This document shows positions 1 to 64,000 of a stretch of 64,000 nucleotides of DNA, piece after piece. Each line of letters opens with the position of its first letter. Positions within the stretch are counted from its first letter, which is position 1. The stretch comes from Tetradesmus obliquus. Taxonomy: Eukaryota > Chlorophyta > Chlorophyceae > Sphaeropleales > Scenedesmaceae. Location: assembly GCA_030272155.1 (NCBI GenBank), contig CP126203.1, positions 3,906,001 through 3,970,000 on the forward strand, in the 5' to 3' direction. Below the pieces are notes generated by a model. That model was not told the origin of the DNA. It ran no database searches and worked only from the letters and a program-made list of their open reading frames with translations. The position numbers were made by a program, and so were the translations under genes.

Positions 1-67
1 CTGCTGATGCTAAATCCAACCACCAACATCATCTCACAAGTCCCACTGCCTTGGCTAAACCCTGCAG

Positions 68-420
68 GAGCTGAGCAGCCTTTTGGCTGAGCTATCCGGC
101 GTTGATCTGCTGGAGGCCACACACACTGATGAGCGCTCCAGCCTGCCATGTCACATATACTACCTGAACTCTTTTTCACAGCTAAATCATGTTGTTTACT
201 GCTGAACCCTGCAGGAGTTGAGCAGCCTCATGGCTGAGCTATCCGGCGTTGATCTGCTAGAAGCCACGCGCACTGCTGCCACCGCACAACCTGCTGTAGT
301 TACTTGTACTGTTTGTTGAACCCGTTATTCTACTGCTACACCCTGCAGGAGCTGTCCAGCCTCATGGCTGAGCTGTCAGGGGTGGATCTGCTAGAAGCCA
401 CCCGCACTGATGAGCGCTCA
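68..420 (+). repeat. Three tandem copies of a VIP1 exon start
   Basis: The exon beginning at 349 ([17 protein letters not shown]) is preceded by two partial copies starting after CTGCAG at 68 and 215. Each keeps the 3' splice site and about 60-75 nt of exon, then diverges into intron-like sequence. Only the copy at 349 runs on into the [10 protein letters not shown] sequence. Confidence 0.85.
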
Positions 421-2120
421 ACTCGAGAGGAGCTGCGCTGCGTGCTTGCTGTTGTGAGGCACGGTGACAGGACGCCCAAGCAGAAGCTCAAGGTGAGGAA
501 AGCAGAAAGAATCTTGGGGCTGCTAGCTACATGAGTGCATGCTTGTTTGTGTGATGCACAATTTTGTGTGCTTCACAAGTCAGGAGCTGCGCTGCGTGCT
601 TGCTGTTGTGAGGCACGGTGACAGGACGCCCAAGCAGCAGCTCAAGGTGAGGAAAGCAGCAAACTTATTTGGGCTGCTAGCTACATCATTGCATGCTTGT
701 TTGTGTGCTTCACGAGTCAGGAACCGCGCTGCGTCCTGGCAGTGGTGAGGCACGGCGACAGGACACCCAAGCAGAAGCTCAAGGTGAGCTCATGGCAGCC
801 GATTCAGTGCGATATATGCACGCATAGTGTAAAGTTACGGCACAAAATGTGTACATCTACACAATGTCGCTGCTTGACGCACCTGTGTTGCTCAATGCTG
901 CGGCTGCATCGTCCAACTGCAGGTGCGTGTGCAACGGCCCGCTGCGCTGTTTGCCAAGACTCCAAAGGGAAAGCAGGCCAGGCGCAAGAGCCTCTATGCT
1001 GTTGTTGTCTGTCTTGCAGCAACAAAGATCTGTGACATCCAGTTATCACAGAGGATTGACACAGGATTTACAGAAACTATGTACAGATTCTCGTATGACA
1101 AGTCCGATGATTCTCATTTCAAGTCACCAATTGCTTGATGTATGTCTTTGCAGGTGCGCGTGCGACAGCCTGCGCTGCTGGCCCTGTTTGCGAAGCACGC
1201 CGACCCTAAGGGCAAGCAGGCCAAGCTGAAGAGCCCCGCACAGCTGCAGGAGCTGCTGGACATATGCAGGAGCACGCTGGCGGTGCGTTGTGTGGCAGGG
1301 GCGAGTGCCATACGTGGAGACACTGTGCAGCATATTGCCGGTCAGCTGGTGTATGCAAGCATCAAACATGGGTGTGCTAGGTAGCTGTCTTGCGAGAGTC
1401 AAAAAGTGGCCTGCCTGAGGAGGCCGGGCATGCAAGGATCACTCACCCGAGCATCTTGCTGAAACATGTGGCTTCATCAGACTGTTTTAGGCTTTGTTTG
1501 ATGTATTTTGTTCTGTATTGTTGTCCCGCAGGAGCTGAGTCACCCCCCGCCGCCTGGCTTGTCTGAGGAGGAGGCTGAGGATCGCGAGGAGAAGCGCGAG
1601 AAGCTGCACATCGTGAAGACGGTGCTGGAGCAGGTGCGGGCGTATATTAGTATAGTGATAGTGGAAAAGGCAGTAGAACTAGTATAATAGTGAAACTCCA
1701 CCCCTCGCTTTGAACAGCAGCACTGTCAAAGGGGCCAGCCGCACATCGTAAAGACTGTGCTGGAGCAGGTGCGGCGCTGTGGTTCTGTCAAAGAAGTGGG
1801 CATTTCAGAGCCCCTACATCCAGACAAGCAATTGCCAATGTTCACAGATGTTGACTGCTTGACGACTGCCTGTTGACTGCCTGGCGTCCACCCACGCACC
1901 TTAACCGTTTCATTTGAGGGGGGGTGCCCTTGACCGCATTATGTGCTGCTATCTGTTTTGCACTTCTGACTGGTTCACAGTGTTGATGTGTACTAACAAT
2001 CAAACTGTGTGTCATTGTATGCACTGCTCCTATCTGTGTGCTGCAGGGTGGCCAGTTCAGCGGGATCAACCGCAAGGTGCAGCTGAAGCCCCTCACATGG
2101 GTCACACCCGGCGACAGCCC

Positions 2121-2157
<37 letters not shown>

Positions 2158-5100
2158 GCTCCTGCAAGTGGAAATGGCAGCAGCAGCGCTGGCCAGCAGC
2201 AGCCGCAGGACTCTACCACACAGCAGCAGCAAGTCAGCAGCATCCCAGACCAGCAGCTGCAGCAGCAGCCTTCTGATCTGCAGCAGCAGCCATCAAAATC
2301 TGAGCAGCAACAGCAGCAGCAGCAGCAGGCGGCCAAGCCTGTGCTGACAGAAGCGCTGCTCATCCTGAAGTATGGCGGCGTGCTGACGCATGCTGGGCGG
2401 GCTCAAGCTGAGGAGCTGGGGAAAGTGTTCAGGCTGGTCATGTACCCCAGGTGCGTTTTGTCATGCTGCGTTATTGTTATTATGTTTTTATTATGTTTTA
2501 TTATCATGAAGGGTTGGTGCTGCAGGATGTGTGTATGTGTCTGCTGATGCATTGACGAGGCGTGACAGCTGTGCAACTGGGCTGAGTCTTCAGGCTGGTG
2601 ATGCACCCCAGGTGCGCTGGACGCTCACCTGTGTTATGTTTCGCCCTTTATTTATTGCTTTCACTTCAACTTCACAGCTTGTGGCACCTGCGCACTCCAA
2701 ACTTTGCCTGCAAGGCACTCGCTGTAGTCAAGTGTTCCCGCAGCTGACCCTGATGCTGCTGTTGCTGGTGCAGGTATGGCTCAGCTGGCGGCGGCCTGCT
2801 GCGGCTGCACTCCACCTACAGGCACGACCTGAAGATCTACTCCAGCGATGAGGGCCGCGTGCAGGTGAGCCAGGATACAACAAGTCCCTGGGAAGGCTCT
2901 CACGGCATCTTTGCGGGCATGCCGCTTTGCGTCAAGCGGTACGCTGCTCAATGCATGTCTTCCTCTTGTTGGTGCGGTTGCTTCCTCTCAACCAATGCTA
3001 TTCAGGCCTGCTGTAGCAATTGTCTGCGGTGGTCTTCACCCAAACACTGCCTGCGGGGGAGGCCGCTGCTCTCACACACCCCATTGCCACTGCCGCTGCT
3101 GCTGCTGCTGCTGCTGCTGCCGCAGGTGTCCGCCGCTGCCGTCACCAAGGGCCTGCTGGCGCTGGAAGGCTGTTGCCGACAATTGTTCTGCTCCTGCTGC
3201 TGCTGCCGCCAGCATAGTAAAAGCTAGTTGTCAACTGCTGCTGCTGCTGCTGCTGCAGGTATCTGCCGCTGCCTTCACGAAGGGCCTGCTTGCACTGGAG
3301 GGCAGCAGCCTGACCCCGATCCTGGTCAGCCTGGTCACCAAGGACGCCAGCATGCTGGACGCGTTCGGCAAGGTGCGCTAGTTGATCTCATGCTATGCTT
3401 GTTGGAAGCAATGATGGTATCAATTTTTTTTATGGTGTACATCGTGCCCCCTTTTATGTCATTATGAGAAAAGCGTGCTGAGCAAATTTCGTGCAACTTA
3501 TGCGTTGCTGCTTCAATCCATTCAAATCCATTGGCCCCTCATAGCCCTTGCCTGAGACGTCCGGCCCATACTCTGCTGCTGACACTTGTGACGGCGTCAC
3601 AACGCAGGGCGCCAGTGATGACATCCGGCACGCAAAGCAGATCCTGTACTCAGCAATGACATGGGACCCAGCCACTTCCACATCCTCCAACTTCACACCC
3701 AACTACAGCCGCAGCACCACCCCTGCACCCACACCGCTGCTGACCTCACCCCCAATGAGCCCCCGCAGCATTAGCAGGGCCAGCAGCAGCGGCGGCGGCG
3801 CTGGTGGTTCAGGTCTTGCCAGGATCTCAGCGGGCGGCCCAGATCAGCAGCAGCAGCAGCAGCAGGGTGTGGTGGCAGCAGCAGCGGCGGCTGTGGCTGC
3901 AGCAGACGGCAGCAGTAGTGTGCAGGCAGGCGGTGGCGTGCAGCTGCAGGCATCGAGCAGCAGCCAGGAGGGAGCAGCAGCAGCAGCAGCAGCAGGGCCG
4001 CCGGGAAGTGACATTGCAGGCATGCCTGAGGCCCCGCTGCAGCACCTGAAGAGGCTGAATGAGCTCATGAAGACCATGGTGGAGCAGGTGGGTGTGTCCA
4101 GGGCTTCCATGCTTTTGTATGTTGCAGGTGCCTTTGCTTGGCAGGATGGTTGCCAATGCAGGACTGGTTACTTGATTAGATCAACACACGCTTGTAAAAG
4201 CTTTTTTGATGGTGAAAGGTGGATGGGGAGTGATGAAAAGGCTGTGTGGTGGGCAGTTCCCTAGCTGGTGTGCTGCTGGTGCAGATTCTGCACCTTCGCC
4301 AGCACGGTCAGCTGATTGCCAATCCTTGACGGTCACAGCTGGTACCAATCCGACTGCACTGACTCAGGAACTGTGCCTGCCTGCTGTGCCGCTCTGTCTG
4401 TGTATTGCCGGCCTGCTGTGCTGTCCCTTTTCGCTGCGTTTGGCTGTGCTGCCTGCAGCTGCGGCAGCTGGTGCTTGCTGAGAAGCGCCACGGCATGACC
4501 AGCAACGCCAGCAGCAGCGCCAAGGACCTCACACAAGCAGAGGCAGCAACAGCAGCAGCAGCAGCAGCAAGTGACTCGGCTGCAGGTGCTGCTGACAGCA
4601 GCAGCGGCGGGCTGCTCGGCAGCATGACAAGCCTTACAAGTCAGCCCCTGCCAGGGGTGTCCCCACTCAGCCCAGGAGTGTCTGGGGCAGCAGCAGCAGC
4701 AGCAGCGGCGGCAGCAGCACCTGCAGCAGCAGCAGGATCGCCGCAGCGGCCGTCGACGGCACCGCCGGCTGGTGCTGCTGCTGCTGCTGCTTGTGGGGCC
4801 GGCAGTGCTGCTGCGGCGGCTGCAGCAGCACGCTACAGCAGCTTGAGCCAGGATCAGAATGTGAGTAAGCTGGGATGGAGCACTGCTACCTGTAATTCGA
4901 AGTTGCGAACGCGCAGCTGCTGTAGGGGCCTGAGTGATGCGCTGGCTATTCAGTGTGCTGCATGCCTTTGGCTCATCCGTGTGATCTGACACATGTCACC
5001 TCTGTCTGCTTTTCTTGCAGGACTGGGTGCTGCAGTCAGACCAGCCCTGCAGCGCGGAGCGGCTTGTTGATTGTATGATTTTTTTAAAACTATCTTATTA

Positions 5101-7263
5101 ACTTCCCTTTTGTCTGTTGCTGCCGCAGGACTGGGTGCTGCAGCCGGACCAGCCCTGCAGCGGGGAGCGGCTGCTGCTGATGTTTGACCGCTGGCAGAAG
5201 CTGGCCAAGACCTTCTGCAAGAAGGGCCGCTTTGACATCAGCAAGGTGGGGAAAGTAACAAAAGCAACATGATTTTGAACCTGGTTTGAATGGCAGGCAG
5301 CAGCTGGCAGGGCGGCTGGTCACCAGCCCTGCACAAGGAGGCGGATGAAAGTGACAGCAGACCTGCACCTGGTGCTGAGCATGATGTTGAGCAATGGTGA
5401 GCAACACAAAGCATGCATCCACTCACTACGTGTTCATTGTACTGCTGTTGTTCTGCATCTGCATCCGCACAGGTGCCGGACATCTACGACAGCGCCAAGT
5501 ACGACGCGCTGCACAACGCGCACCTGGGGCTGGCGCCCACGCTGTACCAGCTCTACGCAGAGGCCAAGATCCTGGCGGACGCCGTCATCCCCAACGAGTG
5601 AGTACCGGCTGGTTATCTTTCAGTCAAATTGTGCAGTTTGTTTGTGTGAGCGTCACGCTGTACGAGCTGTATGCGAAGGCTAAAATCCCCGCGGACCGTC
5701 ATCCCCAACGAGTGAGCACTTGCCTTTTTGCTGATTGCCTCGTGGTGGATGCTATCAACATGTGCATGTTTCACATGGCGCCAGCTCTATGCAGAGGCCA
5801 AGATCCTGGCAGACGCTGTCATCCCCAACGAGTGAGTACTGAGTAATCCCTACTCTTTTTTTGTTTGGATGTGACTGCCATGTGGTTTTTGACTGCTTGT
5901 TTGGGCTACTTGGTTTGACAAGCTGGCGGCAGACGAGCTGTAGAGCAACACGCGGAAGGGAAGATTCTCGCGGACGCGCGTCATTGCCAACGAGTGAGTG
6001 GCAGGAGCGCCATGTCTGCTTGTTTGCTTCCCTAGCAAGGTCGTCACATACATATAAGGAGTGCAGCAGTGCATCATGTTTTTTGTGTTGCGTTCGTTCT
6101 ATGGCAAACGGCCCCTTAAGTGATAGACGGGTTCTGTGAACATTTGCTACAAAGTTAGGTTGCTTTCCGGATGCGTGCAGGTACGACACTGATCCTGCCG
6201 GCAAGCTGGCCATTGCCTCTAAACTTGCCACTGAGCTGTTGGCCTTTTCTTTGAACATGCATCTCATAAATGTTTCATCATGTTTCAACTGCAACCGCAG
6301 ATACGGCACCGACCCTGCCGGCAAGCTGGCCATTGCCAGCAAGATAGCCACGGAGCTGCTGGCCACTTTTTAGATGGCCACTTGTGGATTGGTGCTGTGT
6401 CTGACCAGATGTTGCCATGTGTTGTTTTGCAGGTACGGCACCGACCCCGGCGGCAAACTGGCCATCGCCAGCACGTTTGCCGCCAAGCTGCTGCCATCTT
6501 CAAAGTAACTTTCACCAATTTTCATCATGTTTCAACTGCAACCGCAGGTACGGCACCGACCCCGCAGGCAAGCTGGCCATTGCCAGCAAGATAGCCACGG
6601 AGCTGCTGGCCAAGCTGCTGGACGACCTGCGGGCCAGCAAAGAGGAGAGCCTCGCAACGCTGACAGGTGAGCATGCTGTTTGTATGTGTGTGTTTCCACA
6701 ACTGCTTTGTCTGTTGTATTGTGTGCGGGCCAGCACGGAGGAGAGCCTCACCACATTTGTGTGCATGCGCGCGTGTTACTGCTCTGGTCCTGTGCTTTGC
6801 TGTCAACTTGTTCACTTTCTCTTACTGCTGTCCCCCTGCAGATGTCGACACCCCAGCCGCTGTCAGCAGGGTCGACCACTGGCAGCACAAACCAACAGAC
6901 ACCCACTGTCCTGCGCTGCATGCCGTGTTTTTTTGTGTTTCTGTTCACCTGCAGACGTGGACACCCCAGCTCCCGTCAGCAGGGTCAACCACGACCGCCC
7001 CCTCAGCCGCAAGTCCATGCCGGCACTACGAGCAGCCTCCGCCAACAATCCAAACAGCAGCAATGCCGCTGCTGCTGCTGCTGCTGCTGCTGCCGCATCT
7101 AACGGCAGCAGTGCAGCCGCCGGCGACGGCAGCAGCAGCAACAATGCAGCAGGCACAGGCAGCGACGATGGAGCAGGAGATGTATCGCTGAGCGCTCGCG
7201 TGAAGCGTGCAGCGAGTGCGGGGGCATCTCTTGCCTCTGCTGCCTCACTTGCATCTGACAGCT

Positions 7264-30613: not shown

Positions 30614-31115
30614 ATGAGTGTGGGAGATCTCATCTCGAGTGCGGTTTCACGCATCGTGGATATGCTGCTGTACGTCGTGTACAGAGCCTTGCAGCCCTTC
30701 TGGCTTAAGCTGTGGCCCCCGCTGCAGGTGAGACCTCGCTGCTGTGCCAGGTGGCACACAGCAGCAGCAGCAGCAGCAGCAGCGGTACCGCAGCTTGCTT
30801 TCACTGCTGCAGACAGCCATAAACAGAAAGCCCTCCAACACAGAAATAACGTCTGATATTTCGCTTCATAATACATATTACTTGACTTAATGGCAGGTGG
30901 TGTACCTGATCAGCAAGAGGGTCATCCTGCGCGAGAGGAACCTGGCCGCCCCCACGCTGCCCCCATCCAGCGCCATCCGCGAAAATGGCACGCCCCTGGA
31001 CGCCAGGACATTCGAGGGCTCATTGAACAACCAGCAGCGCCCTACCATGGCCATGACTGGCTGCCCCTTCATCCGCAACACGCCTGCGGCAGAGGGCAAC
31101 ATGATGGTGAGCTGG

Positions 31116-31172
<57 letters not shown>

Positions 31173-38294: not shown

Positions 38295-38368
<74 letters not shown>

Positions 38369-45200: not shown

Positions 45201-45724
45201 CCATGTACACATGATAAGTGGAGGAGTGATGTACTGCAGCACGTCTCCAGCGCCAACACGTTGAGCTCACTGGTCACTTACTGCGCCAGCTCGCCTGCAG
45301 GCATGGATAAACCATGATTGCTTGATTTGCCAAGCATAAACGCGCTGTGCCAAGCATAAATGCGCTGTGCCAAGCATAAATGCGCTGTGCATGCAGGATG
45401 AATGCAGCATAGCAGGGTTGATGTGCCAGAGGCTACCGAAGTCGAGCACTGCTGCGAGGTCAGCCTGTGTACAGTTGTAATTGTGGTTGACACAAATCTT
45501 TCAGGTGTGTGTGATTGCAACATGTGTTGTTATGAAGGTTGTTATAACAACCCGCTCACCTGTGATATCAGCCAGGAAGTCCGGGTCCGGGTGCACCACC
45601 ACCACACGCCGCAGCGGCTGCTTCAGCGGCCTGTTGTGCTTCTCACGGATGACCCTGCCTGCCTCAATCACAGCCTGCATGCGGCCCACGCTGGCCTGGA
45701 TGCGGCCGTCACCCTCGCGCTCCT

Positions 45725-45774
<50 letters not shown>

Positions 45775-48700: not shown

Positions 48701-50332
48701 GAGCCAGCAGTGTAAAATAACTTTGCATTAGCTTTGCATAAAACATTTTAGCTTTGCACTTGACATTTTAGCTTTTTGCATGTAACATGCTTGAGGCATA
48801 GGGGTAGGGGCAAGCAGTTGCCCTTACCAGCCGCGTGTCTGGTCCAGCCCCTCAGCCACAAAGTCAGCCGCGGAGTTCCGCTAGACCCACATGAAACTGC
48901 CCTGCACCTCTTGTTTGAGGTTTACGGTTTAGGTTAAACCCTGAAAAAACCAAACCCTGCTCACCAGCCGCGCGTCTGGTCCAGCCCCTCAGCCACAAAG
49001 TCTGCGGGGAAGTTGGCCTCAAACAGCTCCTTGTTCTCAAAGGGGTAGTGCAGCTGCGGCAGCAGCGGCAGCAGCAGCAGCAGCAGATGTAGTCAAGAGG
49101 CAGTTTGAAGCACGATGCAGCAGGCACAGGAGAACAAGCTGAGCGTCTTTGCCAGCGCTCACCACTTGGTGCCCAGCATGCATGGAGGAAAGAGCTGTCA
49201 CACAAGCGTGCACCTGGCCTTTAAACCTACAGCCACATTGCTGCTCATGAACATAACGCACCTGGCCGTAGGGCATGCTGCCTGACTCGAACCAGCAGTC
49301 AAAGACGTCATCGATGCGGCGCAGCAGGCCCTTGCCACGGCTGCTGGGGATGGTGATGTCATCAATGAAGTGGCGGTGCAGGTCGTCCACCTGTTCAGAC
49401 ATTGTAGATATGACGGCAGGAAAGCAGAGCATGTGCTTACGTGGTTTTTTGAATGGCGATTTTGTCATAGAAGTGGCGGTGCAGATCGTCCACCTGTTGG
49501 AGCATGGCCGTCGCCAAGCACAACGGCGTTTCCTCCGAAGTAACAAGTGACAATATAACATGTAACATAACATAACAAGTAACACACCTTGCGCCCTGCG
49601 ATTTCCTCCAGCTCCTGGATGCTGCCGATGACGCGGATCTCCTCGCCATCCTCGCTGGCCCAGATGGGGATGGGCGTGCCCCAGAACCTGCGGCAGTATC
49701 ACATTGGGATGTTGTTAGTATTTGTGGTTTAGGCTTGATGCAGTGACCAGCCAGCCGGCACACACCACACATCCTCGCTGGCCCAGATGGGGATGGCCGT
49801 GCCCCAGAGCCTGCACAACAACAGCATTTACACGAGCCCGGGTTTGGTGTTGAATTCAGCATTCAAGAAGGCAGATGGAGGACTTCATGAGTTCATAATC
49901 TGCAACTTGAGCTGACTCTATTAAGCGATGTGACCATCCTGATGCAACTTGCGTAGCACACAATTCATTCACAGCTCAGTGGCTCCAGCAATGGCCAGTT
50001 GTGCGCGCCCTCCATAGTTCATGTTCAGCGGCTGGTCATCACTGCCATTTTGCTGATACTTTTGAATCCTACCTGCTCCTGCTGATGGCCCAGTCGTGTG
50101 CGCCCTCCAGCCAGTTGTGGAAGCGCTTCTCCTTCACGTAGGATGGCACCCAGTAGGTGACCTCGTTGTTGGCCAGCAGCCGCTCCTTGATGGCCTCAAC
50201 CTTGATGTATGGAAGGCAGCAGCAGCAGCAGCAGCAGCAGCAGCGGCAGCAGCAGCAGTGAGTGAGTGCGAAGGGAGAGGGGGAGCATCCAAGTGTTGTT
50301 GGCCAGCAAACGCTCCTTGATGGCCTCAACCT

Positions 50333-50364
<32 letters not shown>

Positions 50365-53300
50365 GGCGCACACGCACACAGTGGGACAGAAACAACGTGT
50401 CAGATTCGCAGCACAAAAGGAGACAGCATGGGCTGATGTGCTGATTATCTGGCAAGCAGCAGGCAATGAGTAGAATGCGTCAATAGCGAACCTGCGCACG
50501 CTGACAGCGCAGGAGGGCACTGCGCGGTAGATGAGGGGCATGTCGCCCCTTCACATTCCAGCCATGTTGCGCTGCAGGGGACAACCTTAAACCCTGCAGC
50601 TCTGCAAGCCTAAAACTTGCGCACCTTGACGAACCATGAGGGCACTGCGCGGTAGATGCGGCGTGCGTTGCTGCCCTTCACCCCAGCCGTGTGACACCAG
50701 CAAAACTAAAACACCATAGCCATCAAGCAAGCCCACAATGCGCACAACGTGACAAAATGGGAGGGCACTGCGCGGCAGATAAGCGGCGTGTCATTGCCTT
50801 ACACCCCAGCCATGTTGCACAGCAGGAACAAACCTTAAACCCTGCAGCTCTGCAAGCCTGAAACCTGCGCACCTTGACGAACCATGAGAGCACTGCGAGG
50901 TAGATGACGGGTGTGTCGCTCTGCCATGCCATAGCCAAATAACACAGCAGCAACAGACATCAAAACCTAATGACTTTACATTTGGCGGCGCACCTTGACA
51001 AACCAGGATGGCACTGCGCGGTAGATGAGGGGCGTGTCGCTGCGCCAGCAGAAGGGGTAGGAGTGGTTGAGGCTTGCGTGGTCCACCAGGCGGCCCGCTG
51101 CCTTGATGTTGGCGATGATCTCCTTGTCAGCGTCCTTGACGTACCTGCACACATGTAACATGTTACAAACGTATGTTACAAATTCTGATATGGTGATATG
51201 CATGGATAGGAGGGGTTGAGGCTGGCGTGGTCCACCAGGCGGCCCGCTGCTTTGATGTTGGCGATGATCTCCTTGTCAGCGTCCTTCACGTACTCCAGGA
51301 ACACAGCATGTTATATATGTGTTACAAACATGTCAAACATGTGTTACAAACATGTCACACATGTGTCACAAAGGAGCTACGCAACTTGCCAAGCACCACC
51401 GTGTCTTGGTAAAATGATCGTACTCAGCAAGAGGGCTCCCTAGGCTGGCGCGGTGAAGTGAAGCGGATGCATACCTAGAAAACCCCCACCAAACAGACCA
51501 AAGAGCCTCGAAACTGGGCAGCAGCTCGCAAAACCAACATCACCAAGCACATGATCACTGATGCACTGTACTGTTGACACTATGATGAGCATATCAACCA
51601 TCTTACACACGCAACAGTGGGTTGTAAGACACATCACTCACTTGCCGGCGAAGTCGGTCACCTCCGCCGTGAAGCGTCCGTTGAGGTCGATGGGGCAGGG
51701 AAGGCCCTCGCCCTTGGCGATCACGCCGTTGGCCAGGCACACCCTGGACGCAGCAGCAGCAGCAGCAGCAGCAGCAAGTCAAAGTCATGCTCGAGTGCTT
51801 GGCAACAAGCAGGTCCTGCATTCTCAGTCAGTGACCCTGGTGCTTGGCCATAAGCACCGCAGAGGGGAATGCATGGTGCATCATGCTGGCGCCGCTTGGC
51901 TTCACAGTTCACCAATACATGACACAGCGAAACATCTGCGCAGCGGGCCACCTGTACTCGTCCTCTCCAAATGCCGGCGCCTCATGCACCATACCCGTGC
52001 CGCTGCGCTGAACTACATTCGTAACATACATAACACAGCACAAAGGCCGCACATCAGCCCAGTGTAGTCGTCCTGTCCATATGCAGGGGCCTTGTGCACC
52101 ACGCCTGTGCTGCAACTTGTTCACACATAGATGGCAAAACAGCCGCACATCAGCCAACCTGTAATCGTCCTCTCCGAAGGCGGGCGCCTGGTGCACCACG
52201 CCTGTGCCGCTGTCATCGGTCACGTAGCCGTCAGCCACCACGCGGAAAGCGGTGGTGTGGTCAGCAAAGTACGGGAACAGCGGCTCGTAAGCAGCGCCAA
52301 CCTGCAGAGTGAACACGCACAGGAAACCGTCCAGGTGGTCAGAGGAAGCAATTGCTGAAGGAAGTGTGGCAGCTGGCCCCATATAGCGCCGATTGATGTG
52401 CATGCACAGCAGGACTCAGCTATTACCCACGTTTGGTCCGTAAATTGGCTGCTGCTGACGCAACTGGACGGTTGCAAGCAAAAGAGTAATTCGTAATTTG
52501 AGGGACCCCGCTCTTCGGGCCAGCCCTCTCACCAGCTCAGCGCCCTGGAACTTAGCCAGCAGCTCAAAGCCGGCCGGCGCAGCGCCAGCCTCTCCCTCCT
52601 TGCCTTTCTTCTTGTCGCCGCCCTTCTTGGGCTTGGGCACTTGAGCCAGCACCAATACAACACTTCCGAGAGCCCGTTTGCTTACCTTTTTCCCTCCATT
52701 GGGACGCTACTGTGCATGCTGGTGTGCCCAGTTCCTAAACCGCTAAATCCCTTTCCAAGCAGCAACCACCCTCACCAGCTCAGCACCCTGGAACTTGGTC
52801 AGCAGCTCAAAGCCGGCAGGCACAGCAGCAGCAGCGGCCTCGCCCTCCTTGCCCTTCTTCTTGTCGCCGCCCTTCTTGGCCTTGGGCACTGCACCAGGCA
52901 GCGCTGCCAGGCGCGCCTCGGCCACGATGTACACTGTGCCTTTAGCTGGGTCCTTCACCTGTGGGTGGGGAAGCGTCAACATACAAACAGCCACACACAG
53001 CAGGAGCAGCAGCAGCAGTAGCAGCAGCAGCGCAGCATCAGTCAGTGCCAGCAGAACAGCGCCCTTCTTGGCCTTGGGCACTGCGCCGGGCAGCGCTGCC
53101 AGGCGCGCCTCTGCCACAATGTACACTGTGCCTTTTGCGGGGTCCTTGACCTGTGATGATTGCAGTTGTGCAAGCAAGCATGCCAGTGGCAAGCAGAGCC
53201 CAGCTGGTCAGTGCGAAGGCCCGAGAGAAGGAGCATGAGCTGGCAAAAGCCAGGGAACAGTGGTTTGCAACAGGCACCAGGCTGCACAGCCAGGCGCGCC

Positions 53301-56300
53301 TCGGCCACGATGTACACTGTGCCTTTAGCTGGGTCCTTCACCTGTGGGTGGGGAAGCGTCAACATACAAACAGCCACACACAGCAGGAGCAGCAGCAGCA
53401 GTAGCAGCAGCAGCGCAGCATCAGTCAGTGCCAGCAGAACAGCCGCCCTTCTTGGCCTTGGGCACTGCGCCGGGCAGCGCCGCCAGGCGCGCCTCTGCCA
53501 CGATGTACACTGTGCCTTTTGCGGGATCCTTGACCTGCGATGATTGCAGTTGTGCACGCAAGCATGCCAGTGGCAAGCAGAAACCAGCTGGTCAGTGCGA
53601 AGGCCCGAGAGAAGGAGCATGAGCCGGCAGAAGCCAGGGAACAGTGGTTTGCAACAGGCACCAGGCTGCACAGCCAGGCGCGCCTCGGCCAAGATGTACA
53701 CAGTACCCTTGGCGGGATCCTTGACCTGTGGTGATTGCAGGTGTCAAGATTCAACATGTTAAGAGATGTGAGCGCGTGAGCTGGCACACCAGGCAGAGCA
53801 GCGAGGCACGCCTCTGCCACGATGTACACGGTGCCCTTGGCGGGGTCCTTCACCTGTTGGAAACGAAGCAGGGGGACATGTAACGTCGTCCATGGTCGTC
53901 CATGGTCGTCCATGGTCGTCCATGCCACAGCCGACTGCACTACAATAGAACCACACAACAGACCTGCGGCTGCGCAAGCAGTGTCCTGCAAGTGTCACCG
54001 ACTTACAGAGTGATAATCACACCTACCTGCACATACGTTAGCTCCGGGTGCACGCACAGCGCCAGATTGCTAGGCAGCGTCCACGGCGTGGTGGTCCACG
54101 CCACCAGTTGACTGCCCTCAATCACAGCGCCAGCCGCCGCGCCGCCCGCCGCCTTGATCGGGAAGGCCACCATGACTGCTGGATCGTCCACATCTTTGTA
54201 GTTGAGGCCAGCCTCAAAGTTGGAGAGGCTTGTGGAGCAGGCTGTGGAGAAGGGCATGACCTTGAAGCCCCTGTACACGAGGCCCTTCTCGTGCAGCTGC
54301 TTGAACACCCACCTGCAGGGTGCAATGGTACAATATGCGTTTGGGGTTGAGGGGTTTAGGTCTGATAGGGTTGGGGTTCAATTTGCAAGAGAGGTGGAGC
54401 AGGCTGTGGAGAAGGGCATGACTCTGAAGCCGCTGTACACCAAGCCCTTCTTATGCAGCTGCTTGAACACCCACCTGCACAGAGCGAGGATGCAATGCGC
54501 ATTGAGGTTAGGGTTTTGCACGGGGTTGTGAGGGTTGAGTGAGAATGCAGTGCGCATGTGAGGTTAGGGTTTTGAACAGGGTTGTGAGGGTTGAGTTTGA
54601 GAGACTTGTGTAGCAGGCTTTGGAGAAGGGCATGACTTTGAAGCCGCGGTAGGCCGAGCCCTTCTTGTGCAGCTGCTTGAACACCCACCTGCGGTAAAGT
54701 ATAATCATGAGAAGATGTGAGCAAGGAAGATTATTGTGGTGTTAAAAAACAGTGCTGAGGTCCAGGGTTCCACCAGCAAATGGCTGTTCACAGGCAAACA
54801 GGCATTTGAGACTGGCAAACCGTGTGAATTCAAAGCATCCAGGCCACGCACCACACGCTCTCCATGAAGCTGGGGTCCAGCGTCTTGTAGTCGTTCTCAA
54901 AGTCGATCCAGCGACCCAGCCGCCGCACAGTGACCTCCCACTCCTTGGAGTAGCTGCAGCAGCAGCAGCAATAGCAGTAGGGGATCGTGTGTGGCACTTT
55001 CAGAAATAGCACAGACAAGGTGCAACAGCATCTCCTGTGCATTTCTGTGTGATTGCATGCGTGCGCTGCTATGCTGCCGCACTGCTGTGCTGCTGCAATG
55101 CTGTTGCCTGATCACGATGCTCCTGCCATCCTCGTTGTACTGCTGCACTGCTGCACTGTTGTACTGCTTTGACGGCTTTTTCTGTCGCCTCACCGCATGA
55201 CGATGCTCCTGCACTCCTCATTGTACTTGTCAATGCCCATGGCCAGCACGTCATCACGGCTCTTGATGCCTGCATGCCCCAGAGCAGCAAAGTCAGTGCT
55301 GCGATGTGAGAGCACATGATGGAAAAGAGTGGAGCTGAGCTGAGCCTTTCCTACGACATCTTCATCCCAGGTCAGGCGAGGGAGAGAGACTCCCATGAAA
55401 ACGGCCAGGCAGAACCCCTCCAAAAACCACCCAGCTTTTGTGTCGACATCGTACTCCACGGGCAGGCACAAAACCATGCTAGACCCCTGACCCCCCAACC
55501 TGAACCCTCAAGCAACACACCAAGCTTGTTGTCGATCTCGTACTCCTCTGGCAGGCACAACTGTGGGGTAGGCACAGACAGCATGTTAACAACAAACCCT
55601 AAACAAACACAACGCACGCACCCAGCTTCTTGTCGATCTCGTACTCCACGGGCAGGCCGTGGCAGTCCCAACCGAAGCGGCGGCTCACATGGCGCCCCGT
55701 GGAGCACGCGTAGCGCGTCACGATGTCCTGCAGGAAAACACCAGACAAAAGGCAGTGCGAACAACATAGCTGACTTTCAGCGCACTGGCATCAGGCCAGA
55801 AGTGTCACGTGGCGCCCCGTGGAGCACGCGTAGCGCGTCACAATGTCCTGCGAGGTTACAAGGTTTTAGAAGAAGATGAGGTGAGAAAAAGGGTACTTTT
55901 ACAACCGCCGACAGCCGCTTCTTGTTTGCAGGCAAGAATTGTGCACACGTGCAGCTGCATACCACCAGTTATGATGTCTATCTGCTGCCTGAGCCTCGTG
56001 CCATCGCCTGCCGTTATAACCTGCTGTTACAAGCTGGCTGTCGCCCAGCTCCTGTCGCAGACTGCACCAGCACACCTCCTAGCTGCTGCATGAAGCTGCT
56101 GCTGCTGCTGCTGCTGCTTGTGGTGGTGCTGCTGCTGCAGTTGAACAGCACTGGCTGTTCTGAGCCCTGCAAATGCAATTTGAGGGTGCCGGCCAGCATG
56201 TGACCTTGGTGCGGCAGGCCAACTGCTGCTGGCGCTGCTGCAGCTGGCTGTACACAAATCCCCACTGCAACGCTAAGCAACCTCATTCCACTACAACCAC

Positions 56301-57229
56301 ACACCTTGAGGGTGCCAGCCAGGATGTGTCCATAGTGAGGCAGGCCTGTTGCGAAAGGCGGGCCATCGTTAAAGATGTACTCCGGCTTGCCCTCACTGCG
56401 GCGCAGCTGCTCCTTAAAAGCATCAAGGCTATCCCACAGGGCGAGGATCTTTTCCTCCTCGGCTGGGAAGCTGTCAGGCAGAGTTTGAAAAGTGTTACAT
56501 TGTTAGTTTGGTGGCGGTTGGGTGAAAAGTGACAGAGGCGCTACGCTGATGTTTCTTGGAGGCGTCCGGGCTGCCGCCCGCTGCCAGGAGATCCTCTTCC
56601 TCGGCTGAGAAGCTGCCGTGCGTGTTTTCCCTTTGTTTCAACATTGGTAAGTTGCTGCTGGAGAAATAAAAGGTGACAGAGGCGTTGCTCGGAGGGAGGA
56701 GTGGTGGGGTGAGGTCGGGACTGGTGACTGGGGTCCAGGCTGTCTGCTGTGATGAACATATTGCGTGCAGGAAAAGCTTGGTACTGATAGTAACAAGCAC
56801 TGCTCGTAAGAATGCTACGGCTGTGTTTGCGTTGTGTTGTGTGAAGCATGCAGTGTCCATGCTTGAGTGAGTAGCACAGCTACATGTACTGCTGCTTTGC
56901 CAAGCAATGCTCATCATCTGACTCGCTGCAGCACACTCATATCAAACGAAACATTCATGATTGAAACTACGATTAGATTAGATATATTCTGGCCGAAGAA
57001 AAGTTCAAGTGCCACAATGTCTGATGACATGCAGCAGTTGGGCCGCCGCCATGCTGCTGGCTACAGCTGCAGCTGCTCCAACTGTGCTGAATCCCATCAC
57101 CTGGCCTGCCACCCCATCATGCACATTTGTTGCACACTTTTATGTAACAGTAAACATCGGGATTTGCTGTCATAAGGAATTATAGATCACAGCCCACCTG
57201 TAGTCCTTCCCTTCTACCACCTCCTCCAT
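42299..57229 (-). CDS. IARS: Isoleucyl-tRNA synthetase, cytosolic type
   Basis: Class I synthetase charging tRNA-Ile, with a CP1 editing domain. 23 exons (minus): 57198-57229, 56305-56470, 55622-55727, 55194-55269, 54852-54953, 54027-54312, 52776-52958, 52159-52301, 51642-51743, 50994-51144, 50073-50200, 49588-49687, 49262-49390, 48965-49053, 48360-48486, 47806-47960, 47174-47468, 46005-46238, 45560-45722, 45026-45165, 44044-44148, 43242-43384, 42299-42644. All phases agree; 1166 residues, normal for the eukaryotic cytosolic enzyme. The start [20 protein letters not shown] is typical and has no transit peptide. Landmarks: HYGH (HIGH motif) 56-59, [41 protein letters not shown] (editing), [16 protein letters not shown] (editing), [35 protein letters not shown] 631-635 and [15 protein letters not shown]. 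Low-complexity Ala/Gln inserts occur in exons 47174, 46005 and 42299. The first exon is only 32 nt. Introns carry many exon-end copies. Confidence 0.97.
42810..43640 (-). repeat. Copies of synthetase exon 43242-43384 on both sides
   Basis: 3'-end copies ([21 protein letters not shown] plus GTGGGT) lie downstream at about 42810-42880, 42950-43020 and 43095-43165; the last two are almost identical over about 140 bp. 5'-end copies ([11 protein letters not shown]...) lie upstream at about 43455-43488 and 43565-43630. Confidence 0.85.
44160..44720 (-). repeat. Five tandem 5'-end copies of synthetase exon 44044-44148
   Basis: Units of about 115-120 bp start at about 44262, 44382, 44491, 44611 and 44715 (less complete). 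Each has a TTGCCTGCAG acceptor and VAAAVKGLT(M/R)(D/H)D(V/I)(L/P) followed by an imperfect GCT/GAT-rich run. The six starts including the intact exon differ by few substitutions. Confidence 0.88.
44840..45300 (-). repeat. Copies of synthetase exon 45026-45165
   Basis: The 3' end (LGKDMGK plus GTGAG) is echoed at about 44850-44878 and 44945-44972. The 5' start ([18 protein letters not shown]) is echoed upstream at about 45240-45297. Confidence 0.78.
45726..45840 (-). repeat. (CTG)16 at a synthetase acceptor plus copy of exon start
   Basis: + strand (CAG)16 at 45726-45773, so CTG on the coding strand, directly before the acceptor of exon 45560-45722. A copy of the exon start ([16 protein letters not shown]) follows at about 45787-45832 behind another short CTG run. 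Confidence 0.87.
46440..47040 (-). repeat. Tandem array, 242-243-bp period, of synthetase exon 47174-47468 3' end
   Basis: The exon end ([32 protein letters not shown] region) with its GTGCGG/GTGGGG donor recurs three times downstream, with donor junctions near 46931, 46688 and 46446, regularly 242-243 bp apart. The two lowest units are nearly identical. The copies start within EGYRL, so each holds about 100 nt of exon and about 140 nt of intron. Confidence 0.9.
47680..48215 (-). repeat. Copies of synthetase exon 47806-47960
   Basis: The 3' end ([13 protein letters not shown] plus GTG) is copied at about 47687-47725. The 5' start ([18 protein letters not shown]) is copied upstream at about 48044-48095 and, decayed, 48162-48214. 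Confidence 0.8.
48820..49820 (-). repeat. Copies of synthetase exons 48965-49053, 49262-49390 and 49588-49687
   Basis: Downstream 3'-end copy of [13 protein letters not shown] at about 48828-48872. 5'-end copy of VDDLHRHF at about 49460-49495 (CAACAG acceptor). 5'-end copy of [13 protein letters not shown] at about 49768-49812. Each lies on the side predicted by the polarity rule. Confidence 0.75.
50210..51310 (-). repeat. Copies of synthetase exons 50073-50200 and 50994-51144
   Basis: [11 protein letters not shown] with a CTGCAG acceptor and CTG run is duplicated at about 50293-50350. [10 protein letters not shown] plus GTGCGC is duplicated downstream at about 50505-50535, 50625-50665, 50755-50790 and 50870-50915. 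[26 protein letters not shown] is duplicated upstream at about 51205-51297. Confidence 0.8.
51945..52640 (-). repeat. Copies of synthetase exons 52159-52301 and 52776-52958 (3' ends)
   Basis: [22 protein letters not shown] ends lie at about 51951-51995 and 52057-52107. [16 protein letters not shown]...KFQGAELV plus GTGAGA lies at about 52530-52635. All are downstream of their parent exons. Confidence 0.8.
52959..53870 (-). repeat. Five 5'-end copies of synthetase exon 52776-52958 in a composite about 382-386-bp repeat
   Basis: [18 protein letters not shown] starts recur at about 53152, 53340, 53537, 53727 and 53853. The block at 52959-53060 recurs nearly unchanged at 53341-53445 (382-bp offset), and that at 53150-53300 recurs at 53535-53690, so a two-copy unit was itself duplicated. 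At 53885-53922 a short GTCGTCCATG repeat follows. Confidence 0.85.
54385..54700 (-). repeat. Two 5'-end copies of synthetase exon 54027-54312
   Basis: [10 protein letters not shown](L/S)...GFKVMPFS coding starts with GTGCAG/CCGCAG-like acceptors at about 54395-54474 and 54605-54692, before the intact exon (start 54312). TTAGGGTTTTG motifs lie between the copies. Confidence 0.82.
55100..56230 (-). repeat. Copies around synthetase exons 2-4
   Basis: [10 protein letters not shown] echo at about 55110-55140. [12 protein letters not shown] and EYDVDTKAG ends at about 55525-55560 and 55440-55470. [15 protein letters not shown] start at about 55805-55850. [14 protein letters not shown] end of exon 2 at about 56180-56215, with a CTG/CAG run below it. 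Confidence 0.75.
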
Positions 57230-58494: not shown

Positions 58495-60610
58495 ATGAAG
58501 ACAGTCGTGCAGAAGATGACCCCGGGGGATGTGCCTTTCCCCTGGAGCGAGAAGGACCCCTTCAGGCTGCCAGTCAGCATCGACCGTGTGCAGAAGAAGC
58601 TCATCACACTCGGTGAGTGTGCATCAAAAGCAGATCCCGCTCGCGCTGACAGTGCTGGTTTCAGCCATGTGATGGGTGGGCAGCAGTACGGTGGGGGTGG
58701 GGGTGACTGATCAGCGGCAAAGCAGCAATTGCCGAAGGGTTTGGGTTGGTGGGGGTTGGTGTCTGAGGGGGTGATGTGCGCTTCCCGTGGAGCGAGAAGG
58801 ACCCCTTCAGGCTGTCAGTCAGCATCGACCGTGTGCAGAAGATGCTGATCACACTCGGTGAGTGTGCATCAAAAGCAGATCCCGCTCGCGCTGACAGTGC
58901 TGGTTTCAGCCATGTGATGGGTGGGCAGCAGTACGGTGGGGGTGGGGGTGACTGATCAGCGGCAAAGCAGCAATTGCCGAAGGGTTTGGGTTGGTGGGGG
59001 TTGGTGTCTGAGGGGGTGATGTGCGCTTCCCGTGGAGCGAGCAGGACCCCTTCAGGCTGTCAGTCAGCATCGACCGCGTGCAGAAGATGCTGATCACACT
59101 CGGTGAGTGTGCATCAAAAGCAGATCCCGCTCGCGCTGACAGTGCTGGTTTCAGCCATGTGATGGGTGGGCAGCAGTACGGTGGGGGTGGGGGTGACTGA
59201 TCAGCGGCAAAGCAGCAATTGCCGAAGGGTTTGGGTTGGTGGGGGTTGGTTTCTGAGGGGGTGATGTGCGCTTCCCGTGGAGCGAGAAGGACCCTTCAGG
59301 CTGTCAGTCAGCACCGACCGCGTGCAGAAGATGCTGATCACACTCGGTGAGTGTGCATCAAAAGCAGATCCCGCTCGCGCTGACAGTGCTGGTTTCAGCC
59401 ATGTGATGGTGGGCAGCAGTACGGTGGGGGTGGGGGTGACTGATCAGCGGCAAAGCAGCAATTGCCGAAGGGTTTGGGTTGGTGGGGGTTGGTTTCTGAG
59501 GGGGTGATGTGCGCTTCCCGTGGAGCGAGAAGGACCCCTTCAGGCTGTCAGTCAGCACCGACCGCGTGCAGAAGATGCTGATCACACTCGGTGAGTGTGC
59601 ATCAAAAGCAGATCCCGCTCGCGCTGACAGTGCTGGTTTCAGCCATGTGATGGTGGGCAGCAGTACGGTGGGGGTGGGGGTGACTGATCAGCGGCAAAGC
59701 AGCAATTGCCGAAGGGTTAAGGTTGGTGGGGGTTGGTTTCTGAGGGGGTGATGTGCGCTTCCCGTGGAGCGAGAAGGACCCCTTCAGGCTGTCAGTCAGC
59801 ATCGACCGCGTGCAGAAGATGCTGATCACACTCGGTGAGTGTGCATCAAAAGCAGATCCCGCTCGCGCTGACAGTGCTGGTTTCAGCCATGTGATGGGTG
59901 AGCAGCAGTACGGTGGGGGTGGGGGTGACTGATCAGCGGCAAAGCAGCAATTGCCGAAGGGTTTGGGTTGGTGGGGGTTGGTTTCTGAGGGGGTGATGTG
60001 TGCTTCCCGTGGAGAGAGAAGGACCCCTTCAGGCTGTCAGTCAGCATCGCCCGCGTGCAGAAGATGCTGATCACACTCGGTGAGCAACAGCACCGAGGGT
60101 GTGGTTACAACACAAGCTGATGTGGGGGGGGGGGGGTGTCACTGGTTCAAACTGACAGCGTGCAGCTTACCGCGGCAGCAGGCTGAGAGTAGCAGCGCTG
60201 AGTGCAATTGGCAGGGACGGCTGCGTGTGGCAGGCACCGGTGGGAGCAGTTGCATGGCTGCAGCAGCAGCGATGCATAGCATGCAATGTTAGTTCTTGTT
60301 AGTGTTCCGCTGTGTGCAGAGAATGTTGTTTATCCTGGCACAGGATACAACACAGCCTCCACGCCCCTGGGGTGTTGGACTTTTACAGCGTGTTGGCAGC
60401 TAGCGCATTGTTGTCACTGCCATGAGCAGCAAGGGACACCAAGAAGGCCCAGCACAATGGGCGCAGCTGCTGCAGCTTCGTATGGCACTGCACTGCTGGC
60501 ACGCGCAAGCCTGGTGGTGAGCAGCACCTGGGCAGGCTCTTGAGAACCGTGCGCTGATCCTGTCCTGTCTGATCTCCCTTGACGTCTACTTGTCGTTTAC
60601 TTGCTGCTGC

Positions 60611-60643: not shown

Positions 60644-60727
60644 CGCCAGGCTGGGAGAAGCCGTGGGTGGAGCAGATTGTGGACCGCATCATGAAGGGCG
60701 TGTGCTGATACTGTTGCTGCTGCTGCC

Positions 60728-60761
<34 letters not shown>

Positions 60762-60762
60762 T

Positions 60763-60803
<41 letters not shown>

Positions 60804-61062: not shown

Positions 61063-61098
<36 letters not shown>

Positions 61099-61183
61099 AT
61101 CAACTTCCCGACCAGCATTGGGCTGAAGCAGGACGATATCTGCAACATTGCCTTCATCAGCATGGTGCTGTTCGAACCAACTC

Positions 61184-61244
<61 letters not shown>

Positions 61245-62124: not shown

Positions 62125-62183
<59 letters not shown>

Positions 62184-62346
62184 TCAGGTCACCCCCGAGG
62201 GCAAGTACCTGGTGAAGGGCGCTGCGCGCATCCAGGTGGACGCGCTGCCGCTGCCCGACGGCTCTGCTGCCGTGGGTGTGAACTACTTCAGGGAGAACAC
62301 CAGCTTCATGACCAGCCCAGTCAGCCCAGTGCCGCCATCGGCATAA
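58495..62346 (+). CDS. mTERF-like protein (short; N-terminus uncertain)
   Basis: mTERF proteins bind organellar nucleic acids through helical repeats and act in plastid or mitochondrial transcription and RNA metabolism. Exons: 58495-58612, 60805-60890, 61494-61685, 62188-62346; phases agree; 184 residues from ATG 58495. Sequence blocks: VSIDRVQKKLITLGWEKPW, VEQIVDRIMKGMLKTTEERA, FLTSIGLKQDEICNMAS (mTERF-type helix), NPDTRLRTVTDYLKARGV (helix), and VADLVLRHPRIFEHKV, the Pro-containing mTERF repeat end. The tail VTPEGKYLVKG...SPVSPVPPSA ends at TAA 62344-62346. The family call rests on one to two repeats, fewer than usual, so upstream exons or a transit peptide may be missing, or this may be a degenerate paralogue. 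The first exon has seven copies in tandem. Confidence 0.6.
58613..60083 (+). repeat. Six 244-245-bp tandem repeats carrying copies of mTERF-gene exon 1
   Basis: The exon end (FPWSEKDPFRLSVSIDRVQKMLITLG) with its GTGAGT donor occurs seven times, with donor junctions at 58613, 58858, 59103, 59347, 59591, 59835 and 60080: steps of 245, 245, 244, 244, 244, 245. Units differ by single bases (for example lysine to glutamine in the third copy and single-base deletions in the 59281 and 59401 areas). The last copy lacks the intron part of the unit. Copies 2-7 read VQKMLITL where copy 1 reads VQKKLITL. Confidence 0.95.
60603..60804 (+). repeat. CTG runs and 5' copy of mTERF-gene exon 2
   Basis: An imperfect CTG run with CCGCCAG precedes GWEKPWVEQIVDRIMKG at about 60650-60705, which ends in TGA. 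A second impure CTG run (60715-60800) with CCAG precedes the intact exon at 60805. Confidence 0.85.
61059..61493 (+). repeat. Three 5'-end copies of mTERF-gene exon 3, each behind a CTG run
   Basis: INF(P/L)TSIGLKQD(D/K)ICNMAS(I)S starts at about 61099, 61244 and 61367, before the intact exon at 61494. The run before the second copy is an exact (CTG)18 (61187-61240). Acceptors alternate between CCAG and GCAG. Confidence 0.9.
61836..62179 (+). repeat. 3'-end copy of exon 3, 5'-end copy of exon 4, and (CTG)18
   Basis: GVPDGSVAD...HPLIFEYKV plus GTGCGG at about 61838-61892. VTPEGKYLVKGAARIQVDALPL at 62029-62093 after CCGCCAG. An exact (CTG)18 at 62126-62179 precedes the intact exon 4 acceptor TTTTCAG. 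Confidence 0.87.
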
Positions 62347-63671
62347 TCCTTGAAAAGGATGACGTGCCTGCATTGGTCTGAATGTGGTAGTGTGTAGGGG
62401 AGAACACCAGCTTCATGACCAGCCCAGTCAGCCCTGTGCCTCCCTCGGCGTAATCTGTCATCACGATGACAGCAGTGCTGCGTGCTGGCGTGCTGGGTGT
62501 TGCGCCGAGTGTTGCTTGCAGCTTCTTGACCAGCACCGCCAGCCATGTGCCGCCCTTGGCATGATAAGGAGTTCTGATGTGTTTTACAGTGCAGTCATGG
62601 GATCTAGAGATTGTGGGGTCTAGGTTTGTTACAGCGGCGTGTGTCACGCGCAGCCTGCTGAACGTGCAGGTGGTGTTGCATGTGCCACGTGGATGGGCTC
62701 CAGTGGATTGCTCGGCGCTCATGTTGCGGCACGCCAGATGTTTGCAGCATTGTGCGGCTGATTCTGGCGTTGCAGCTGTTTGTCAACTTATGTTTGCTGC
62801 ACTCCCTCAGCAATTGTAGCGCTGCAGTAGGTTTGCTTGTGTGGCAGCTTGAGTGGTTGAGTTCAAGGTAGTGGGCATGGTTGCTTGTTATCGCCTGCTG
62901 CTAGTGTGTAACAGTATATGCAGACACGAACAGTTGCGACTGAACACATCAACAGTAGTAGTGCTACACACACCCAAATAAGCTGTAACGTTGTAAAAAC
63001 CACGGCAGGCTGTTGCTCAGCTGAGCAGGGAGGCCACAAGCCACATATGCATGGCAGGACCATACAGTGGCCTGTACATTGGTGCACCGTCGACCATTGC
63101 CCGTTGGCCTATAATACAGTGTATGTGGTAGTTACCCAGCACCCAATGCACGTTGAGCCGGAATGCACAACGGGCTAGCAGGCAGAGCACATTGCGGTTC
63201 TAATGATGTATCTTATGTGTGTTTGTGTTCTGACTTCTGATTTATTTGTGTGTGTTTGTGTTCTGATTTGTGGATGCAATGCAGGTGCTGCTTGTCTCTC
63301 TGCTCTGCCATCAGCACCACAAGATGGGAACAACGTCCATGCACGTCTACCACGCATGAAAGAAACTATAGTGGACGGTTACATCATTGCGAACATGCTA
63401 GAGCTTGTCAGCGCAGGCTGCCGCCAGGTGTTGTGGTTGTGTCCGATGTTACGTATGGCGCTGTGATTCACAATCCGCTGTGCACAGCAAGCACATACTG
63501 GCTGTTATGCAATAGGCACAATTGGCAGTTCTGGGCGTATTTGCTTCTGCGCGGGTCGCTGGACCGAAGGGCTCTTTCACGTGGTCCTGCTACCTTTTGG
63601 CAGCTCACCATGCGTCACACTCTCTGCATCTTTGCACACAATTGATTCAAACGTACCAAATGTTTCTAGCA
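62347..63671. other. Region after the mTERF-like gene, with C-terminal copies
   Basis: Copies of the last codons (ENTSFMTSPVSPVPPSA plus stop) lie at about 62400-62453 and, decayed, 62522-62566. Beyond that no gene is recognisable to 63671. A GTGTGTTTGTGTTCTGA repeat occurs at 63216-63268. Confidence 0.6.
62907..62911 (+). terminator. Candidate poly(A) signal TGTAA for the mTERF-like gene
   Basis: TGTAA about 560 nt past the stop codon; it lies past the C-terminal copies. Confidence 0.3.
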
Positions 63672-63818
63672 ATGCCATCCTCGGATGCTGATGCCGCGCC
63701 AGTAAGGCCGCGAGCTGCACCTCCTGCAAGAGGCCTGCCTTCCTTTCGCGTATGGCAAGCACGGCAGCTGCTCGGGCGCGACTTGCTGTGCTGGTGCTTC
63801 ATATTCTGTACCTACATG
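63672..63818 (+). CDS. Possible first exon of an unrecognised gene (truncated by window end)
   Basis: ATG at 63672 opens 49 codons (MPSSDADAAPVRPRAAPP..., then an aromatic/hydrophobic end LLCWCFIFCTYM) followed by a good GTGAGT donor at 63819. Phase 0 at the junction. The Pro/Ala/Arg-rich start and short hydrophobic segment could be a signal anchor or transit sequence. No family is recognised, and the rest would lie to the right of the window. Confidence 0.35.
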
Positions 63819-64000
63819 GTGAGTCAGCTTTGGGTGCGGGTCCGAGGCAGCGTGTGCGGAGCTTGTCTTGCATCCTTGGATGGGCTGCCAGCCATGCACT
63901 GCTGCTGTAGCTGCATTACAGCCTGCACACAGGGGCGTCTGAGTGCATTGGAGGCTTTTGCTTGGCTCTAAAGCAGTCACAGTGTCAAAGAGTACTTTCA

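Follow-up and report, generated by a model that had tools for sequence, protein, structure and literature searches.

Tandem duplications across exon-intron borders and the length of introns in the green alga Tetradesmus obliquus

Why do the introns of a green alga contain so many partial copies of the exons that border them? The question is raised by a stretch of 64,000 nucleotides from Tetradesmus obliquus (assembly GCA_030272155.1, contig CP126203.1, positions 3,906,001 to 3,970,000 of the forward strand), referred to here as the window, in which six genes have been recognised. The original prediction, made from the sequence alone, was that in all six genes exon ends are repeated together with adjoining intron, that copies of an exon's 5' end lie upstream and copies of its 3' end downstream of one intact exon, and that this could be a neutral mode of intron growth. 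Such partial copies are called echoes here. The architecture is real and strongly non-random; it consists of junction-spanning tandem duplications, whose geometry and size were established in three of the genes. In parts of the T. obliquus genome they are a major contributor to intron length.

Geometry of the echoes

The gene models were built from homologous proteins, independently of the repeats, and comprise 46 exons with 92 exon ends. The isoleucyl-tRNA synthetase (IleRS) gene has 23 exons on the minus strand, to which the T. obliquus protein P0001 (OEZ86_009348) was mapped with 0 mismatches in 1166 residues. The 12 exons of a haem peroxidase gene (PF03098) come from spliced alignment of the T. 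obliquus protein P0121 (OEZ85_000815), with 619 of 629 residues identical. In the VIP1/PPIP5K-type gene 11 exons were placed by spliced alignment to P0219 and P0251; later exons were left out of this model and its frame is uncertain beyond exon 8. The DnaJ-like, P450-like and mTERF-like genes were named by eye from translations and are known here from self-matches and from the order of similar peptides. A crude gene finder absorbed many echoes and junk and served for anchors only.

When each of the 46 exons, with 80-bp flanks, was searched against its own gene, 122 rows were obtained. Copies of 5' ends (46) are without exception upstream of the intact exon and copies of 3' ends (49) without exception downstream of it; whole-exon copies are absent from the 122 rows. 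The remaining rows are 15 interior exon fragments and 12 matches that contain no exon sequence and for the most part mirror the search itself. As background, 7 matches to the opposite strand of these genes and 6 between different genes were counted. At least one partial copy is present at 49 of the 92 exon ends. Four of these 92 are start or stop codon ends and not splice junctions; among the 88 splice-junction ends 47 are affected, by 91 of the 95 end-anchored copies, whose units span exon and splice signal. The other 4 copies are at the stop-codon ends of IleRS and peroxidase. The echoes are located within existing introns of the models or beside the coding end. Their units are direct, adjacent and short, with nearest-unit offsets of 85 to 274 bp (median 131 bp), and inverted pairs are rare; self-BLAST of the window gave 185 forward self-matches, every one less than 2 kb apart, and a single inverted match.

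The claimed polarity is therefore obeyed by 95 of 95 copies, and local tandem duplication across splice junctions that leaves one intact exon is borne out as well. The copies had been described as ranging from identical to barely recognisable, in agreement with an identity of 0.70 to 1.00 in their exon parts. The statement about all six genes stands for the three modelled genes; in the other three it derives from self-matches and from the order in which similar peptides follow one another. Polarity needs no rule of its own: any tandem duplication in which the exon remains readable will produce it, because the copy left in line is the one to which the exon remains attached. It is evidence for the tandem geometry and for nothing beyond that.

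Do the duplications favour the borders of exons? When units of the observed sizes were placed at random in a simulation, 55% fell in introns only, 34% spanned a junction, 8% lay inside exons and 3.5% extended over a whole exon. A first screen of 22.2 kb of intron gave no intron-only families. A permissive screen of the flanks only, with exons and exon-derived parts masked, detected 1 intron-only pair outside the echo arrays and, within them, duplicates at 12 exon ends, whereas about 20 intron-only pairs would be expected at the simulated ratio by our own arithmetic. In the three modelled genes, duplicates are not as common in intron interiors as at exon ends, which agrees with what had been predicted. 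At the edges of duplicates from 22 loci (94 matches), donor-like motifs are 4 to 8 times commoner than at interior positions (7.4% versus 1.7%, and 12.8% versus 1.6%). Acceptor-like edges are little informative because CAG is common.

Intron length, flanks and divergence of the copies

Measured from the outermost copy to the exon, echo units make up 1824 of 4090 intron bp in VIP1, 4453 of 6696 (66.5%) in the peroxidase gene and 6226 of 11430 (54.5%) in IleRS, an overall range of 45 to 67%. Subtraction of the units lowers the standard deviation (SD) of the length of 43 introns from 309 to 108. The residual core is fairly constant, with a median of 208 bp compared with 227 bp in nine echo-free introns. 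Permuted spans, with the limit that no span exceeds its intron, give a larger spread (p 0.02 for the SD, p 0.0004 for the median absolute deviation). These values support intron growth by junction-spanning duplication. In the three genes roughly half of the intron DNA, and a large part of the variation in intron length, can be ascribed to one recognisable process with units that lend themselves to counting and dating.

The homology of the copies to their parent beyond the splice site is bimodal, extending at most 10 bp in 54 of 95 copies and at least 14 bp in 41. The flanks of the short-flank copies (51 tested, three being unplaceable) appear unrelated to the parent's flank, with a median p of 0.465 and p <0.05 in 6 of 51, although their exon parts are 70-100% identical. 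For example, the farthest echo of the peroxidase exon 36010-36181 has an exon part that is 98.8% identical and a flank without homology to the exon's own flank. Among long-flank copies p is <0.05 in 30 of 41. Pooled 3'-side flanks of outermost copies retain weak homology (18 copies, p 0.0008) and pooled 5'-side flanks show none (17 copies, p 0.74). Short flanks prevail among the outermost copies (37 of 49, with 12 long) and long flanks among the inner ones (29 of 46, with 17 short); inner copies thus share the parent's flank more often, as is expected if exon pieces drive the growth of the arrays. It thus seems that recombination between exon pieces enlarges the arrays, following an initial event of which most flank homology has since disappeared. 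Novel filler inserted at birth in all short-flank copies was also considered; it is ruled out on the 3' side by the residual homology and is compatible with the 5' side.

Of 93 echoes scored, 74 have an intact splice dinucleotide, or 77 after a one-base correction of the VIP1 exon 10 boundary; the hundreds of decoy splice sites that had been suggested go beyond this count. Stops occur in 4 and frameshifts in 10 of the 93, VIP1 being included with its uncertain frames. The loss of splice dinucleotides, the few stops and the frameshifts suit a loose decay. A freely decaying copy allows a ratio of about 2 between divergence at third codon positions and at first and second positions, somewhat more if third positions mutate faster. 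With VIP1 excluded, the ratio between copies and exon is 3.8 in IleRS (confidence interval (CI) 2.59-5.7) and 2.46 in the peroxidase gene (CI 1.82-3.36), the latter not clearly above the free-decay level. Where flanks are clearly homologous, the ratio of flank to exon divergence is 2.56 for parent and echo (1.69-3.8; 24 pairs; expectation at most 2) and 1.38 between echoes (0.74-1.86; 19 pairs; expectation 1). Ratios of 4 to 13 are found at IleRS exon 17, peroxidase exons 3, 6 (5' end) and 7, and VIP1 exon 1, and at five exon ends the exon part has diverged by 2-9% as against 20-43% in the adjoining intron part. The copy of peroxidase exon 6 at offset 460 differs at 1 of 60 positions in its exon part and at 11 of 45 in its flank (gaps excluded); in the array of this exon the two divergences are uncorrelated (20 pairs).

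Plain neutral decay of all copies, when tried as an explanation, fits the average of the clearly homologous pairs but fails for single arrays. The proposal of neutral growth is therefore upheld in part: the loose splice decay and the average flank ratios agree with it, whereas the IleRS codon ratio, the five exon ends and the 54 homologies that stop at the splice site do not. Some copies have probably been kept similar, or had a function for a time. Their similarity would be explained by gene conversion from the working exon or by descent from a diverged allele.

At 197 codon differences that change an amino acid in IleRS and peroxidase, the nearest homologue matches the exon in 164 cases, the echo in 6 and neither in 27. 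The homologue mostly sides with the exon, so most of the change has occurred on the echo side. The peroxidase echoes 37188-37278 and 38836-38921 carry K441, K447 and N600, the residues of P0121 of the OEZ85 strain, unlike the adjoining exon; site 443 is an exception, the echo there having the residue of the exon and not that of OEZ85. Echoes may preserve ancestral states of the exon.

Neither of the two annotated IleRS isoforms found uses any echo. The isoform P0007 is an intron retention at 47165-47468, at the exon with three 243-bp 3'-end echoes, and stops within the first retained bases.

Recurrence elsewhere and the origin of the echoes

Outside the modelled genes, duplicate density was determined in 20 loci of 10 kb, 18 of them on 14 contigs and two neighbouring the window. 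Coverage by local direct duplicates ranges from 0 to 52% per locus, with two loci free of them, and inverted duplicates are rare. The 52% (4 pairs) was measured in L028, a locus at a contig end whose repeats are possibly of another kind; it is followed by values of 44% and 31%. With 33-58% in its six 10-kb blocks, the window lies at the rich end of this sample. For polarity, three protein families were searched in six frames (185 hits in all) and overlapping pairs of partial hits outside the window were scored, PF00664 being excluded from the count as its hits are too variable to reveal short echoes. Eighteen pairs obey the polarity, 1 breaks it and 11 are ambiguous; removal of 3 echo-echo pairs leaves 15 versus 1. 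The obeying pairs come from few genes, on contigs C16, C12, C17, C6 and C10. Echo-like copies are present in a synthetase gene on C10, and Cpn60 hits occur on 11 contigs, where most Cpn60 genes are without such a pair. In this small sample the echoes recur outside the window with the predicted polarity, but their density is not uniform, some loci and genes being free of them.

How do the echoes arise? It is proposed that short segments straddling the border are duplicated in tandem, which lengthens the intron while the exon stays intact, and we give this reading a probability of roughly 0.6. A segment across the exon-intron border, of the size of the nearest units, would be duplicated, and the splice site beside the uninterrupted exon would stay in use, so that the mRNA is unchanged and the intron is longer by one unit. 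The exon piece would then be present twice, and recombination between the pieces could multiply the unit into arrays, the introns growing from a core of about 210 bp. For the first copy an exon-anchored repair is favoured, although unproven, in which a broken end would copy across the border into the intron of a template (a sister or a diverged homologue) and would then be end-joined. A more far-reaching form of this reading is put forward tentatively, as possible and no better than that. In it the process is targeted to junctions, with the border as the unit of duplication and repair or recombination anchored in exons, possibly between diverged haplotypes; units of about 130 bp would be added to the core, fragments would be kept alike by recombination with the working exon, and intron length in much of the genome would be set in this way rather than by transposons or general slippage.

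Several points weigh against border-spanning duplication as set out here. Most of the 12 exon ends of the flank-only screen are members of arrays, for which recombination between exon pieces could suffice without a junction-targeted first event. The flanks of the outermost copies are mostly unrelated to the parent's flank, and plain tandem duplication gives this result only with decayed introns. The relation of intron length to echo span (r2 0.88) is partly built in, the span being limited by the intron length. All three modelled genes lie in the window, at the rich end of the density sample. A class I synthetase gene at C1:7432466-7439303 (L003, L004, L006) has no detectable local duplicate in 6.8 kb, unlike the IleRS gene of the window. 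Splice choice was judged from annotated proteins.

A somewhat doubtful alternative is that tandem duplication is neutral and blind to position, and that intron-only copies fade, whereas those that include an exon piece remain recognisable through the conserved exon and gene conversion. The weak residual homology of the 3'-side flanks, the average flank ratios near the neutral values of 2 and 1, and splice dinucleotides that decay about as freely as other sites are all consistent with it. It does not account for the single intron-only pair against 12 exon ends, nor for the IleRS codon ratio above 2, and a core of about 210 bp has little space for the 80-100 intron-only units to be expected from 49 junction ends, unless deletions balance them. 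Rather unlikely, in our view, is an origin of the unit from another haplotype or close relative, with alignable exons and unalignable introns, the unit being placed beside the exon by exon-anchored repair and end joining. Homology would then stop at the splice site and exon pieces would differ mainly at silent sites. This is what is seen where homology ends within 10 bp of the splice site, with related flanks in so few copies and many exon parts 92-100% identical, and in the third positions of IleRS; intron-only duplicates would also be invisible, and the OEZ85 residues at sites 441, 447 and 600 would be accounted for. Ancestral residues kept in the echoes explain these three sites equally, however, and site 443 sides with the exon. 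The pooled 3'-side homology and the unclear third-position excess in peroxidase also speak against such an origin, which requires frequent recombination between very diverged genomes; we know of none in T. obliquus.

Introner-like elements add intron DNA on a large scale, as many similar dispersed copies, and the large-scale addition is shared by the echoes. A mobile insertion carrying a splice site would fit the filler between echo and exon, which is often unrelated to the neighbouring intron. It is nevertheless very unlikely, as no common filler sequence is apparent by eye and no dispersed family was found: among the 40 of 190 candidates scored, by a search that skips common words, a contiguous 9.2-kb IleRS stretch matches elsewhere only triplet repeats and one sequence of 136 bp (77%). 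Functional alternative or mutually exclusive exons are highly improbable. The few stops and frameshifts (VIP1 frames being uncertain) and the third-position excess in IleRS point towards function, but the copies break off within the exon, where inspection by eye shows no consistent second splice site, and 16-19 of 93 splice dinucleotides are broken. Mutually exclusive exons (PMC9013439) are likewise tandem exon sequence inside genes; they are whole functional exons, whereas the T. obliquus copies are decaying exon ends. The lack of whole copies, the neutral-like splice decay and the annotated IleRS isoforms, neither of which uses an echo, speak against this role. An assembly error can hardly be involved, given copies that differ by up to 30% with separate histories, the rarity of inverted pairs and the equal geometry on other contigs.

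Related systems and further features of the window

The nearest described case found is a single potato gene in which an intron was gained when an intron-exon segment was duplicated in tandem and its splice signals were inherited (PMC4974935). The potato gene gained a new intron and extra exon sequence, whereas in T. obliquus an existing intron lengthens, at about half of the tested exon ends. We know of no splice-junction bias of the short tandem duplications that follow break repair, and the placement blind to gene structure that is assumed for them is not what the intron-only count shows (one pair, with about 20 expected). Short duplications from the repair of staggered breaks (PMC8355091) are also direct and local and are a candidate for the first step; they concern insertions of <100 bp, while in T. 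obliquus the nearest units have a median of 131 bp and the three genes contain hardly any intron-only units. A published description of the exon-end pattern was not among the matches listed in full-text literature searches, which is weak evidence of absence since most subscription journals are outside their coverage. A term search did not find the word 'intron' in the main text of the Scenedesmus genome papers PMC7590803, PMC7955037 and PMC5552973.

What determines the length of introns has long been asked, and it is usually attributed to transposons, general indel bias or selection. Among five green algae T. obliquus has the longest mean introns (462 bp versus 230-302 bp) and the lowest coding share (15.7%), according to PMC5966456, and the process described here could help to explain both. 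Gene predictors are at risk, as echoes resemble coding exons with splice sites.

Table 1. Positions of the modelled genes, of selected echo groups and of other repeats in the window
Feature	Position	Strand	Remarks
VIP1/PPIP5K-type gene, 11 exons	349..6666	+	spliced alignment to P0219, P0251; 9 exon ends with echoes
VIP1 exons	349-492, 1154-1282, 1532-1633, 2047-2450, 2774-2864, 3259-3372, 3608-4087, 4459-4860, 5129-5245, 5473-5597, 6548-6666	+	
Two 5'-end echoes upstream of VIP1 exon 349-492	54..290	+	offsets 281, 134
Two 3'-end echoes downstream of VIP1 exon 349-492	582..788	+	offsets 154, 291
Three 5'-end echoes of VIP1 exon 6548-6666	6176..6497	+	offsets 367, 247, 115
Haem peroxidase gene (PF03098), 12 exons	30662..39244	+	alignment to P0121; 15 exon ends with echoes
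Eight 5'-end echoes upstream of peroxidase exon 35360-35536	34440..35320	+	spacing about 102-120 bp
Four 3'-end echoes downstream of peroxidase exon 36010-36181	36235..36752	+	
Intron-only pair, the sole one detected outside echo arrays	36929..37146	+	offset 173, 45 bp, 86.7%; small interior exon fragments between the halves
IleRS gene, 23 exons	42302..57229	-	P0001 mapping; 25 exon ends with echoes
Three 3'-end echoes downstream of IleRS exon 43242-43384	42777..43166	-	
Four 5'-end echoes upstream of IleRS exon 44044-44148	44216..44720	-	
Three 3'-end echoes downstream of IleRS exon 47174-47468	46437..47041	-	243-bp units
Four 3'-end echoes downstream of IleRS exon 50994-51144	50489..50926	-	spacing 121-125 bp
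Five 5'-end echoes upstream of IleRS exon 52776-52958	53060..53860	-	offsets 192-895, more than one flank type
245-bp array in the mTERF-like gene (name by eye)	58524..60084	+	6.4 copies, 98% identity, which places it among the youngest large arrays of the window

A scan of the window for Rfam families (at gathering thresholds) and for tRNAs gave no matches. Tandem repeats confined to introns have short periods (10-56 bp); a 14-bp minisatellite (8.3 copies, 98%) is located at 36783-36898 within a peroxidase intron. Telomere-like heptamers of the AGGGTTT type are about 6-fold more frequent in positions 1-64000 than expected (28 versus 4.6, both strands), and several were seen by eye inside intron filler; as a source of the filler they were rejected, being too rare in spite of this enrichment. 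Runs of CAG/CTG triplets are common across positions 1-64000, some of them at acceptor sites, and disturb simple repeat screens.

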